DNA of 64,000 nt, taken from the NCBI GenBank assembly GCA_030538075.1, contig JAUNUQ010000010.1:1-64000 (forward strand), written 5' to 3'. The notes under the pieces were generated by a model. The model made no database searches, was not told the origin of the DNA, and saw only the letters and a list, made by a program, of their open reading frames with translations. Of the stretch, positions 8,634-60,079 are shown in pieces. The DNA is from Tissierellia bacterium. GTDB taxonomy: Bacteria; Bacillota; Clostridia; Tissierellales; Peptoniphilaceae. Made by a program: the position numbers and the translations under genes. How positions within the stretch are numbered: position 1 is the first letter of the stretch; each line of letters starts with the position of its first letter.

Positions 8634-9914
8634 ATGGTATCACAAGAACAGCGAAAGAAAGTCGAGAGTTATCGATGGCTCATCTGGGGTGTTCTCGCCC
8701 TGATGTACATCTTTGTAACTTTCCACAGGATGGCGGCAGGGGTCGTCCGGCCGATGTTAGAAAGCGATTTTGGAATTGGTGCATCCGAATTTGCCATGAT
8801 TGGATCTATGTATTTCTATGCATACTTTGTCATGCAAATCCCATCGGGGGTCTTTGCTGACACTCTGGGGCCTAAGAAAACGGTTACCTACTTTTCGATC
8901 CTAGCAGCTGTAGGCTCTATCTTGTTCGGGTTTTCATCAAATCTATATATGGCATATTTAGGGCGTTTTTTAGTTGGAGTTGGAGTATCCGTCGTATTCG
9001 TCTGCATTATCAAAATCCAATCCCGTTGGTTCTATGCAAAGCAGCTGGCATTTATGATGGGAATGATTGGATTAACAGCAAACCTAGGTGCATTGCTTGC
9101 GCAAACTCCCCTATTGATCGTCTCCCAGATGATCGGTTGGAGGGCCACCTTTATCGGCATGGGTGTGATCATGTTTTTCTTTGCAATCATAACTTGGTTT
9201 TTTGTGAAAAATGATCCCACCGAGATGGGCTTGCCCAGCATGGAAGAGCTCGAAGGCAGACCGGCACCGGCGAAGACGGCTGCCAAGATGACCATCGGTG
9301 AATCTTTAAAATCCGTCCTGAGTAATCCGAGAACTTGGATCATCTCCGTCGCATTTATTGGAATGTATACGGGATATATCATCCTGTTGGGTACCTATGG
9401 AGGCTCTTTCCTATCTGTAAAATACGGATACACGCCTGCTGTATCAGCCACTTTAATCATTGCAGCTGTTATTGGTTCTGCATTGGGTGGATTGTTTATC
9501 GGAGGATGGTCGGACAAGCTCAAGAAGAGAAAACTCGTCTTGGTCGTATGTGAAGTGTTAACACTGGTCGGATGGCTCATCTTCTTATATGTAGATATTC
9601 CAAATACCATCCTATTGGGAATCTTCTTATTCGTATTCGGCTTTATTATGACTGCATTTACCTTGACATGGACTCTGTCGAATGAGAGTAACGATAGAAG
9701 ACTACCAGGTATTGCGACCGGAGTGGTAAACTGTGTGGGTTTTGCTGGAACGGCGATCATCCCCGTTATGATGGGAGGTAAACTCGATACCATAGGAAAT
9801 ACACTAGAGGGTTACCAAAGTGCATTTCTCATTTTTGTAGTCGTAATGGTCGTCTCCGTAGTCGCTTCTTTCTTTACTAAGGAGACGAATGCGACGAATA
9901 TCTACCAAGAATAA
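8634..9914 (+). CDS. Major facilitator superfamily transporter
   Basis: The 426-residue protein has about twelve hydrophobic segments and the MFS signature loop after segment 2, here GVFADTLGPKKTV. It is a cytoplasmic-membrane secondary transporter for a small solute. ATG at 8634 follows GGAGGGGGATTCT, and this decides the start over a TTG 30 bases upstream. The next gene, 86 bases downstream on the same strand, is an M20 amidohydrolase, so transporter and hydrolase may handle the same N-acylated amino acid or dipeptide. That link is inference; the substrate is unknown. Confidence 0.85.
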   Translation: MVSQEQRKKVESYRWLIWGVLALMYIFVTFHRMAAGVVRPMLESDFGIGASEFAMIGSMYFYAYFVMQIPSGVFADTLGPKKTVTYFSILAAVGSILFGFSSNLYMAYLGRFLVGVGVSVVFVCIIKIQSRWFYAKQLAFMMGMIGLTANLGALLAQTPLLIVSQMIGWRATFIGMGVIMFFFAIITWFFVKNDPTEMGLPSMEELEGRPAPAKTAAKMTIGESLKSVLSNPRTWIISVAFIGMYTGYIILLGTYGGSFLSVKYGYTPAVSATLIIAAVIGSALGGLFIGGWSDKLKKRKLVLVVCEVLTLVGWLIFLYVDIPNTILLGIFLFVFGFIMTAFTLTWTLSNESNDRRLPGIATGVVNCVGFAGTAIIPVMMGGKLDTIGNTLEGYQSAFLIFVVVMVVSVVASFFTKETNATNIYQE

Positions 9915-16560: not shown

Positions 16561-17109
16561 TTAAATATTTGGCACTGGCGCCGCTTTTTGTATTGGGTTC
16601 CAGATCAAATACAATAGGATGGTCGAGATGACCAATTCGACGCCCATATAGCTGCCATTGTACTGGATGGCGTAGAACCAGGGATTCATCGTGCCCGCAT
16701 ATTCGCTGAAGAACACCACCCCGGAGAGCACATGAAAGACTGCCCTCCCCAGCATCCCCAAAAAGGAGGCACCGAGGACCCAACCCATTCGAGTCTTCGC
16801 ATTGTTTAAATGTCCCCTGGCGATGCCTGCTAAGCCCAAGGAGCCAAAGGCCAAGGGATAATCCAATAGTAATTGGATCGGAGAGACCATAAACGGATCC
16901 ATAATAAATTGTATCAGTCCATACAGAGTCCCAACGACCAGCCCTCTACCGGTGCCCCATCGCATTGCAAATAGCAGGATGGGAATCATCGAGCCCGCCG
17001 TCACTGAGCCGCCCTGGGGCATCTTAAAGAGTCGGATCATACTGAGAGCGGTTGCCAAGCCGATCATAATGCCCCCTTCAACCATCATTCTGAGTTTGTT
17101 TCTGTCCAT
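16561..17109 (-). CDS. thiT: Thiamine-specific ECF transporter S component ThiT
   Basis: This 182-residue membrane protein has six hydrophobic segments and the thiamine-binding loop region GGSVTAGSMIPIL typical of ThiT (YuaJ). It binds thiamine outside the cell and needs the shared EcfA/A'/T module, which is not in this window. TGGAGGTAGAA precedes ATG 17109; the frame is open further upstream but without a site and runs into the riboswitch terminator. Control by the TPP riboswitch directly upstream confirms the thiamine role. Confidence 0.93.
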   Translation of the reverse strand: MDRNKLRMMVEGGIMIGLATALSMIRLFKMPQGGSVTAGSMIPILLFAMRWGTGRGLVVGTLYGLIQFIMDPFMVSPIQLLLDYPLAFGSLGLAGIARGHLNNAKTRMGWVLGASFLGMLGRAVFHVLSGVVFFSEYAGTMNPWFYAIQYNGSYMGVELVISTILLYLIWNPIQKAAPVPNI

Positions 17110-17131
17110 TTCTACCTCCAAAACCGTATTA

Positions 17132-17165
17132 CAACAAAACACCCCATACCATGAGCATAGGGTGC
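17132..17165 (-). terminator. Expression-platform terminator of the TPP riboswitch
   Basis: On the minus strand CACCCTAT and ATGGGGTG pair with one wobble and are followed by TTTTGTTGT, placed between the aptamer and thiT. When TPP is bound this hairpin should stop transcription. Confidence 0.8.
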
Positions 17166-17172
17166 TTAAATA

Positions 17173-17262
17173 AGCCACTTTCCTACGCTGGTATTATCCA
17201 GTTCAGGTATCGGGGTTACGTTCACGTTCTCAGCCGGGTCAAGCCCAGCACCCCCAGTGCCA
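17173..17262 (-). promoter_or_regulatory. TPP riboswitch (THI element) of thiT
   Basis: The minus strand shows the conserved blocks of the THI box in order: CTGGGGGTGC, GGCTGAGA, a variable arm, ACCTGAACTGGATAATACCAG and CGTAGGAAAG. These are the pyrimidine- and pyrophosphate-binding arms. The aptamer is about 90 bases and is followed by a terminator and then thiT. Confidence 0.95.
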
Positions 17263-17320
17263 TAGGTATTTGGTTTTGTTGTTAGATTTATTATATCTGA
17301 CCTGAGCCGGATGCGCAATA

Positions 17321-24146: not shown

Positions 24147-24183
24147 ATTGATCTCCTTCAAGTCCTTTGTCCCATTTTATCAT

Positions 24184-24226
24184 AAGAAAAGGTCGACGGC
24201 GAACCCGGTGGGCTTTCAGTCGACCT
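24184..24226 (-). terminator. Terminator after the selenoprotein gene
   Basis: On the minus strand AGGTCGAC and GTCGACCT pair perfectly around a GC-rich inner stem and are followed by TTTTCTT. It sits five bases after the TAA of the upstream gene and separates the transporter/selenoprotein unit from addBA. Confidence 0.8.
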
Positions 24227-24230
24227 CTTA

Positions 24231-24536
24231 TTATTCTCCTTCTCGCTGAGATCGCATCTCTTGGTAAAAGGAGAGGACTTCTCCTAACCTCTCCAAGTCC
24301 ATTATCCTGCTCTCTCGATGAACTTCTCTGCCATCCATCTCCAAGATCAGAGTTGGAAAGGCAAATATGAGATTTTGTCCCGCTAACTCCTGATTTTCAG
24401 CCTCTTTTAGGACTACCAGTTCGATATCGGGAAATCTCCTCTGTACCCGCTCCGGGGCATCTCGACTGACTCAGCAGCCCTGTGTCGTAAAGAGCAGCAG
24501 CCGAATTCCGTTAGGGCTTTGTCCCTGTTTTTCCAT
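24231..24536 (-). CDS. Thioredoxin-like selenoprotein with Cys-Sec (in-frame UGA)
   Basis: The frame from ATG 24536 to TAA 24233-24231 is open for 101 residues apart from one UGA at codon 22 (24473-24471). The whole product reads as a small thioredoxin fold: strand LLLFTT, active site QGC-U-VSRD, helix, strand IELVVLKEA, helix with ELAGQ, cis-proline segment AFPTLILEMDG (Pro61) and a final helix. UGA follows Cys21, and the usual second cysteine of CxxC is Ser24, so redox chemistry would rest on Cys21-Sec22. AGGAG lies six bases before the ATG. A GC-rich hairpin follows the UGA. The gene begins nine bases after the GDT1 transporter stop. The alternative is a simple nonsense mutation of a Gly codon (GGA to TGA), but the flanking protein is intact on both sides. 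Confidence 0.75.
24444..24473 (-). promoter_or_regulatory. UGA codon with SECIS-like hairpin
   Basis: After the UGA (24473-24471) a short stem UG-CCC / GGG-UA with one bulged C closes a GGAGC loop starting 18 bases downstream. Bacterial SECIS elements lie within the coding region just after UGA and usually carry G in the first loop positions, so position and loop are compatible. The stem is short and the assignment is by eye. Confidence 0.45.
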
Positions 24537-24545
24537 ATGCATCTC

Positions 24546-25433
24546 CTAACAATTCCCTGGATCGAATTTCCCAGATATTTTTGCCGATTTGGTTGGGTCT
24601 ACGGCCTTCATGTCTTCAAAGAACCGGATAAGGTTTCCCAAATACCGAATATCTGCCCCCAGATAGTCCTTTGTCGCCGCTTCGATATCCATTCCAACCT
24701 GGCATTCGGAGGAATGGACGCGGCAATGGCGACATCTTGCCAGAGCTCTTTCGAGAATCGCGGCTCTTTGTATGCCTCGGTTGATCCCGTTTCGATAAAA
24801 TACGAAGACAACCGCGGTGGTAACTGCGATGAGAATCCCGATGAAGATCCTCATATCCAATAATCCCAAACGGACTGTGCCGAGCAGGGAAGTAAATCCG
24901 AAGAGGATGAACACCACTCCGGCGATGAGTTTCATGGTCACTTCGGGGATCTTTTTTCCCATGACGCGACCGACGACGATGCCCAAGCTACTGACGAGGA
25001 CCATTCCGAGGGTGGTGCCCGCCAGCACCATCCAGGGCAGCTGGGATTCCAATCCCAATGTCATCGCCGTCAACTGGGTCTTGTCTCCCAGCTCTCCGAC
25101 GAAAAAGGCCAGAGCGACTGTAGCCACCGGATCCAAACCCTTACCCTTTCCCTCTTCCTCCTCTTCATCGTCATAGTCGATCTTGAAAGAGAGGATCCCA
25201 AATATGAAAAACATCAATCCTGCGATGATTTTTAAATAGTCCATATTGGCAAAGCTGGAGATCAGCTGTGCAAAGGCCACGGCGATGCCGTGATTTAGAA
25301 AGGAGCCGAGCATCACACCGAGGAGCACCTGTTTCGTCTTGTATTGGGTCGCAAAGGCGAAGGCCAAAAGCTGCGTCTTGTCCCCCATCTCCGCTAAGAA
25401 GATCAATAAGAATGCCTTAATAAAGTCCGCCAT
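24546..25433 (-). CDS. GDT1/TMEM165-family cation transporter with cysteine-rich tail
   Basis: The 295-residue membrane protein contains the two family signatures AEMGDKTQ (14-21) and GELGDKTQ (113-120), each opening a three-helix repeat, with an acidic DDEEEEE loop between them. Bacterial relatives export Mn2+ (some work with Ca2+) against protons. After the sixth helix there is an unusual soluble tail of about 80 residues with Cys234, Cys237 (CRHC), Cys244 and a final Cys295, not part of the core family. ATG 25433 has GGAGGG upstream. No manganese riboswitch (yybP-ykoY) is visible. It is cotranscribed with the selenoprotein gene. Confidence 0.88.
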   Translation of the reverse strand: MADFIKAFLLIFLAEMGDKTQLLAFAFATQYKTKQVLLGVMLGSFLNHGIAVAFAQLISSFANMDYLKIIAGLMFFIFGILSFKIDYDDEEEEEGKGKGLDPVATVALAFFVGELGDKTQLTAMTLGLESQLPWMVLAGTTLGMVLVSSLGIVVGRVMGKKIPEVTMKLIAGVVFILFGFTSLLGTVRLGLLDMRIFIGILIAVTTAVVFVFYRNGINRGIQRAAILERALARCRHCRVHSSECQVGMDIEAATKDYLGADIRYLGNLIRFFEDMKAVDPTKSAKISGKFDPGNC

Positions 25434-38116: not shown

Positions 38117-38296
38117 TGTCATTCTCAGCGGCAGTTAACCCTCTAATTTAAGACCTTCTGTTTGTGAAGGTGGGTTAGCTGTCAATTGTTTTCTGACTTC
38201 CCTTCGTAGAGGGCTTGTCATCCACGTTCGAACAAACGCTGTCCCTTATAATTAGCGTAGGTTTAATTATACAGGTTAACACACCGATCTGAGAAC
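38117..38296 (-). ncRNA. Structured non-coding RNA or leader of ytxH, class not identified
   Basis: A strong minus-strand promoter (38303-38331) precedes about 180 bases with several clear helices: a closing stem CAGCG/CGCTG (38237-38241 with 38126-38130), a long arm CAGCTAACCC/GGGTTAACTG (38172-38181 with 38132-38141) topped by the perfect ACCTTC/GAAGGT hairpin (38153-38171), and a GAC-CCCT/AGGG-GTC hairpin, then the terminator. No long reading frame exists. It may be a free small RNA (6S or raiA type were considered) or an attenuator of the downstream gene; I do not recognise the conserved core of any class. Confidence 0.6.
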
Positions 38297-38302
38297 ATAA
38301 TC

Positions 38303-59722: not shown

Positions 59723-60079
59723 GGGGGCGAGCTTGGTTTCGACGGGGATGTGGAGCCAAGAGTAGCGAGTCGCTGTGCCAATCAGCGTTAAAAGTGGCAA
59801 CTAAAAATAAACGCTAAAAACGAAACTAATTTTGCACTAGCTGCTTAATTGCAGCTAAGCGGTCACAGGTAGAAGGCCCACGAGCTCCTCTGACCTCAAA
59901 TTGAGTGGGGAACCGCACACGGCTAAGCTTTGCACCGTGGACGGAATTCATGAAGCTACCGAGGGCGAAATCCTTTCAGCCGGAGTTCGTCTAAGGGAAT
60001 AAAAAAAGACTGAATGCACTCGGAGAAGCTCTTGAGGAAGTGTTTCCGGACGTGGGTTCGACACCCACCGCCTCCACCA
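59723..60079 (+). ncRNA. ssrA: Transfer-messenger RNA (tmRNA)
   Basis: The 357-base RNA starts GGGGGCG...GGTTTCGAC and ends GGTTCGACACCC...CGCCTCCACCA; the first and last seven bases pair with one wobble as the tRNA-Ala-like acceptor stem. The tag reading frame ends NFALAA followed by TAA, within AKNETNFALAA. It rescues stalled ribosomes with SmpB, which is not in the window. CCA is encoded. Confidence 0.97.

Follow-up and report, generated by a model that had tools for sequence, protein, structure and literature searches.

Selenocysteine is usually thought to replace a catalytic cysteine one for one. A locus in the window, as we call the whole 64,000-nucleotide stretch of DNA analysed here, raises the question of whether selenocysteine can also be used one residue along from that site, because an in-frame UGA directly follows a cysteine at the active-site position of a thioredoxin-like frame. 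On the minus strand, this frame reads MEKQGQSPNGIRLLLFTTQGC-UGA-VSRDAPERVQRRF...SQREGE-TAA and encodes 101 residues, with UGA22 as its sole internal stop. The plus strand of the same interval is interrupted by TAG and TAA stops and was ruled out, and the standard-code ORF list holds no minus-strand entry of at least 60 amino acids at 24231-24536. The original prediction had described this 101-codon frame, its single UGA after Cys21, a ribosome-binding site, and a terminator, and the analysis recovered each of them on the minus strand (Table 1). None of 200 shuffled sequences was as stable as the terminator hairpin following the stop codon.

Table 1. Coordinates of the features discussed; positions are those of the window unless a locus handle is given, and motif positions are numbered 0 to 3.
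Feature	Position	Strand	Remarks
Thioredoxin-like selenoprotein gene (predicted)	24231..24536	-	101 codons + TAA; UGA at codon 22; translated with TGA=U
In-frame UGA (predicted Sec22), motif position 1	24471..24473	-	Same alignment column as the UGA of G603, G1161, and G1162
Cys21, motif position 0	24474..24476	-	Single cysteine of the whole protein
Ser24, motif position 3	24465..24467	-	Cys there in 98/98 non-UGA homologues
Pro61, cis-proline position of the thioredoxin fold	24354..24356	-	Column invariant in the family alignment
Shine-Dalgarno-like AGGAG	24543..24547	-	6 nt 5' of ATG
Candidate SECIS hairpin UGCCC[CGGAGC]GGGUA	24444..24459	-	Loop 16 nt past UGA; 13.7% of shuffles as good, not significant
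Intrinsic terminator	24182..24229	-	Fold -25.3 kcal/mol, z = -5.9
Upstream GDT1 (TMEM165-like) cation/proton antiporter gene	24546..25433	-	PF01169, E 3.2e-41
Promoter-like site, 5' of the GDT1 gene	25487-25458	-	
G603 clade, first locus	L103:1489-1824	+	Phe-UGA-Gly-Ser/Asn
G603 clade, second locus	L183:1258-1578	+	Phe-UGA-Gly-Ser/Asn
G603 clade, third locus	L184:1062-1381	-	Phe-UGA-Gly-Ser/Asn

The AGGAG sequence overlaps the TAG that ends the upstream GDT1 gene (24546-24548), and this overlap, together with the promoter-like site, suggests that the two genes are probably co-transcribed. Past the UGA, the GC content by codon position (0.63/0.33/0.48) resembles that of the adjoining genes. The open frame alone is nevertheless weak evidence and lies within chance: a scan of the window for frames that continue far past a single UGA identified six, the five others without evident meaning. 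What raises this frame above chance is its homology with other genes carrying an active-site UGA.

The genome can decode selenocysteine. In this 65-contig assembly, which is 98% complete, tRNA-Sec (73 bits; also found by ARAGORN) and selB (351 bits) scored above their cut-offs, and selD, selA, and selB stand side by side upstream of tRNA-Sec, so that all of selA, selB, selC, and selD are present. The original prediction also pointed to the frequent use of selenocysteine by amino-acid-fermenting Clostridia, and selenoenzyme genes of this fermentation were found: in-frame UGA codons occur in grdA (ECFV-U) and in three copies of grdB (TST-U-GTCTRCG or MVST-U), as well as in selD (KTSG-U-AAKVGP). 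The candidate SECIS hairpin has a GG-containing loop and, unlike selD and grdB of the same genome, lacks a GGU triloop; grdA likewise lacks it, and its absence from the candidate is therefore not decisive. The Rfam scan revealed no match at the selenoprotein gene.

The general thioredoxin models did not recognize the protein, which scored 12.9 of the required 23.5 bits with Pfam Thioredoxin PF00085 and 18.5 of 96.8 bits with TIGR01068. Its active site is neither CxxC nor UxxC: it reads Cys-Sec-Val-Ser, with selenocysteine at position 1 rather than in place of the first cysteine, and with serine at position 3 rather than a retained second cysteine. In related genomes, a plain protein search gave a best homologue (in G070) at 5.4e-10, and profile searches returned the selenoprotein at 8.1e-26 and 7.3e-24, values obtained with profiles of which it is itself a row. 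As predicted, the sequence is thus protein-like on both sides of the UGA. Homologues were traced by profile through the order, class, and phylum, and a separate scan found family members in Neomarinimicrobiota. The nearest solved structure is PDB 4EUY (1.2e-32 by family profile, 6.6e-7 by the selenoprotein alone), which is titled 'Uncharacterized protein' and on which a literature search found nothing. The sequence comparisons, in which similarity extends along almost the entire protein, place the selenoprotein in this family of small, stand-alone, 4EUY-like thioredoxin-like proteins, with which it shares the fold, the cis-proline position, the G[KR]E..RESR stretch, and small size. It differs from these CxxC proteins in its Cys-Sec-Val-Ser motif and in a helix alpha-1 that lacks 3 or 4 residues present in its relatives.

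The thioredoxin fold is supported by three results. In the AlphaFold model (pLDDT 91), strands and helices follow one another as in thioredoxins, and helix alpha-1 begins with residue 22; Foldseek returned thioredoxins (E 8.7e-7 to one of them); and Pro61, at the cis-proline position ahead of a central strand, is invariant in the family. No signal peptide was apparent by eye, and the protein is probably cytosolic. The NCBIfam release searched contained no selenocysteine-specific model above its cut-off for this family, and genes of the family are therefore likely to appear in annotations as truncated entries or not at all.

Searches with conserved stretches differed in their yield. With the single protein, whose own short peptides are too specific, no relatives were found, and in a second family alignment no stretch was sufficiently conserved; a later alignment identified 23 cellular loci, each of them CxxC, and five loci on viral contigs, whose motif is CSAC. 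No conserved neighbour was seen around 17 family loci, and tblastn against plasmids gave no match. One homologue (L029/L014, G041:C1 about 9308-9565) carries a mid-gene in-frame TAA (NDVN-TAA-VRG) and is a pseudogene or a sequence error. CxxC homologues also occur in Gudongella sp. and Bacillota bacterium CSMAG_1285 (L210 and L221), and the protein of the latter is identical to that of G228.

The UGA codons of the family are confined to the active site. Among 112 members with a readable motif, the selenoprotein under study included, all 98 without UGA have CxxC, and all 14 with UGA have it at motif position 0 or 1. Ten of the 14 have selenocysteine for the first cysteine, nine as U0xxC3 and one, G235 (L066:865-1167, minus strand), as U0xxS3. 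UxxC members also occur in another class of the phylum (L196:1088-1399, plus strand; L197; L198; L125). G235 contains no cysteine anywhere in its 110 residues and, judging from this composition, is possibly a thioredoxin-like protein with one selenol and no thiol. Three related species of another clostridial order (G603, G1161, and G1162) have F0-U1-G2-S/N3, with a conserved cysteine seven residues past the motif, and the selenoprotein under study has C0-U1-V2-S3; outside its own gene, UGA at position 1 without cysteine at position 3 occurs only in this three-species clade. The homologues are therefore not uniformly glycine at codon 22 with an intact CxxC: thirteen carry UGA at the active site, and in three of these it occupies the identical motif position. 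Together with selABCD, they support the predicted reading of UGA as selenocysteine. Tryptophan appears at the UGA position in no homologue, and the genome has tRNA-Sec and selB, which speaks against a reading of UGA as tryptophan. The genome G1251 holds a second, UGA-free copy of the family elsewhere.

Six congeneric pairs, among them the G603 clade, which shares the UGA position of the gene under study, keep the UGA, and the codons downstream of it are under purifying selection, with pN much lower than pS (for example, 0.010 vs 0.194, 0.101 vs 0.528, and 0.000 vs 0.370). These values demonstrate that the UGA genes of the pairs are translated through the codon. This within-genus conservation concerns the homologues, as the gene under study has no congener among the genomes compared, and we infer selenocysteine incorporation for that gene. 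A survey covering the UGA-member genomes other than G1161, G1162, G1251, G1433, and G1447 revealed a full selB in all of them except G235, which is 55% complete and has a 171-residue piece of selB. In the tree, where many forks are unresolved, UGA genes are scattered over several places, and the G603 clade is solid (100/99).

An alternative is that a former CxxS or CxxC gene has recently acquired a stop at codon 22, leaving a young pseudogene and a 21-residue peptide. The observations that count against selenocysteine decoding would suit such a nonsense mutation: the gene has no close relative in which its own UGA could be compared; it stands alone on the longest branch of the tree (1.19 changes per site), a possible sign of relaxed constraint; its SECIS candidate is weak, as its shuffling result indicates; and position 1 is commonly serine or glycine (44 and 28 of the 98 non-UGA homologues), some codons of which, TCA and GGA, are one base from UGA. 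Against this alternative, the frame has stayed intact along that long branch, as have the ribosome-binding site, terminator, cis-proline, and RESR stretch; the genome decodes selenocysteine; and chance would put a stop at motif position 0 or 1 in about 2/101 of cases. The mutation would also require the loss of the cysteine at residue 24, which occurs in none of the 98 UGA-free homologues yet is present in other selenocysteine lineages. Position 3 lacks cysteine in 5/14 UGA members vs 0/98 others (Fisher p 1.5e-5) and, counting one member per genus, in 3/9 UGA genera (p 4e-4), p-values that are indicative only, since the rows are related. This restriction to UGA members suggests that Ser24 belongs with selenocysteine use and not with a chance nonsense mutation, and we regard the pseudogene explanation as quite improbable. 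That codons 21-24 of a true CxxC gene were misassembled or miscalled is more improbable still, to the point of being hard to credit. The 65-contig genome was judged from its assembled sequence; however, turning CSVC into CUVS (TGC-TGA-GTC-AGT) takes several base changes and no frameshift, and the corresponding motif of G603, G1161, and G1162 would also have to be erroneous. We therefore consider it very probable, on sequence grounds, that UGA22 is decoded as selenocysteine in a thioredoxin-fold protein and that this residue is displaced by one position to form a vicinal Cys-Sec pair.

Under selenocysteine decoding, SelB and tRNA-Sec would insert the residue at UGA22, and the N-terminal end of helix alpha-1 would bear Cys21-Sec22, with Ser24 where the usual resolving cysteine was. 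Sec22 would be the likely attacker of disulfides or other oxidised targets, and the intermediate might be resolved either internally, with Cys21 forming a vicinal selenenylsulfide, or by thiols of an external system. Because Cys21 is the sole cysteine, any internal resolution would have to take the form of the Cys21-Sec22 selenenylsulfide. The protein would then act as a thiol reductase built on a single cysteine plus a single selenocysteine. The N-terminal side aligns without gaps and puts Cys21 at the first-cysteine position, as predicted, and the alignment puts Ser24 on the second cysteine. The predicted Cys21-Sec22 arrangement stands as a feature of the sequence; a functional pairing of the two residues is an inference.

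Alignment in the shortened helix alpha-1 is ambiguous, 3 or 4 residues being absent past the motif, and on the alignment and models either residue may take the place of the usual first cysteine. This ambiguity leaves room for a competing account of the mechanism, though not of selenocysteine decoding, in which a one-residue loop insertion has made Sec22 the ordinary N-terminal catalytic residue of a U-x-S site, with Cys21 as a spectator. Single-selenocysteine members such as G235 exist, and phenylalanine precedes selenocysteine in the G603 clade, so that the Cys-Sec pair is dispensable and a neighbouring cysteine is not required for selenocysteine use in the family. The gap-free N-terminal alignment and the start of the model helix at residue 22, just after Cys21, argue instead for a displaced selenocysteine, and we hold the loop insertion to be a real possibility, if not a probable one.

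In mammalian thioredoxin reductase, Gly-Cys-Sec-Gly forms the C-terminal, flexible tail of a flavoprotein. The selenoprotein shares with it the Gly-Cys-Sec sequence and a possible vicinal selenenylsulfide, but would carry the pair at a helix N-terminus within a 101-residue thioredoxin fold. A 2026 inventory of prokaryotic selenoproteins (PMC13188914), in the part considered here, lists thioredoxin as UxxC (PF00085). With these proteins and the nine homologues of the UxxC type, our selenoprotein shares the thioredoxin fold and an active-site selenocysteine; it differs in that its selenocysteine lies one position later, the second cysteine is missing, and neither the PF00085 nor the TIGR01068 cut-off is reached. 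Adjacent Cys-Sec, as in our protein, is described there for SaoC, SaoB, HgcA, CopZ-like, and KCU-star proteins, and the same part of the inventory contains no protein in which the pair occupies the CxxC site of a thioredoxin fold and no thioredoxin-like protein with CUxS or xUxS. It also describes Sec.1 and Sec.2, which are likewise thioredoxin-like with a redox-pair spacing other than CxxC; these belong to another Pfam family (PF13192), and their spacing is CxU or UxC rather than CU. A literature search on CU thioredoxins found nothing.

The genome has one PF00085 match, a signal-anchored thioredoxin (L229:1357-2007, minus strand) with a CIYC motif and a hydrophobic N-terminus that adjoins a CcdA-like membrane protein; 'CcdA-like' and 'signal-anchored' are assignments made by eye. 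No cytosolic TrxA was found in the 98%-complete genome, although trxA may sit in the missing part of the assembly. The glycine/sarcosine reductase operon starts with a TrxB-type reductase (L154:1373-2332, above the TIGR01292 cut-off), and within L154:1373-3705 (plus strand) trxB lies directly 5' of a grdE/grdG-like gene with no trxA between them. In C. difficile, trxA3/trxB3 in the glycine/sarcosine reductase operon reduce GrdA (PMC10880999). Because trxB heads this operon although no cytosolic TrxA was found, the selenoprotein could, by analogy, fill the missing TrxA's place for GrdA. A fuller and speculative scenario, which we rate as unlikely, is that two separate lineages of this one family have moved selenocysteine to the second place of the active-site motif and given up the resolving cysteine, that in the protein studied here the vicinal Cys-Sec pair at a helix N-terminus is the whole redox centre, and that the selenoprotein may carry electrons to GrdA.

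The family comprises UxxC several times, UxxS without any cysteine once, and selenocysteine one position along in two lineages. It thus offers a natural series for examining how far selenocysteine can shift from the cysteine site and whether a thioredoxin fold can do without a resolving thiol. Elsewhere in the window, a ThiT/YuaJ-type thiamine transporter gene (16561-17178) is directly preceded by a TPP riboswitch (17163-17265, minus strand), and the genes for 6S RNA (38119-38297, minus strand) and tmRNA (59723-60079, plus strand) were also identified.
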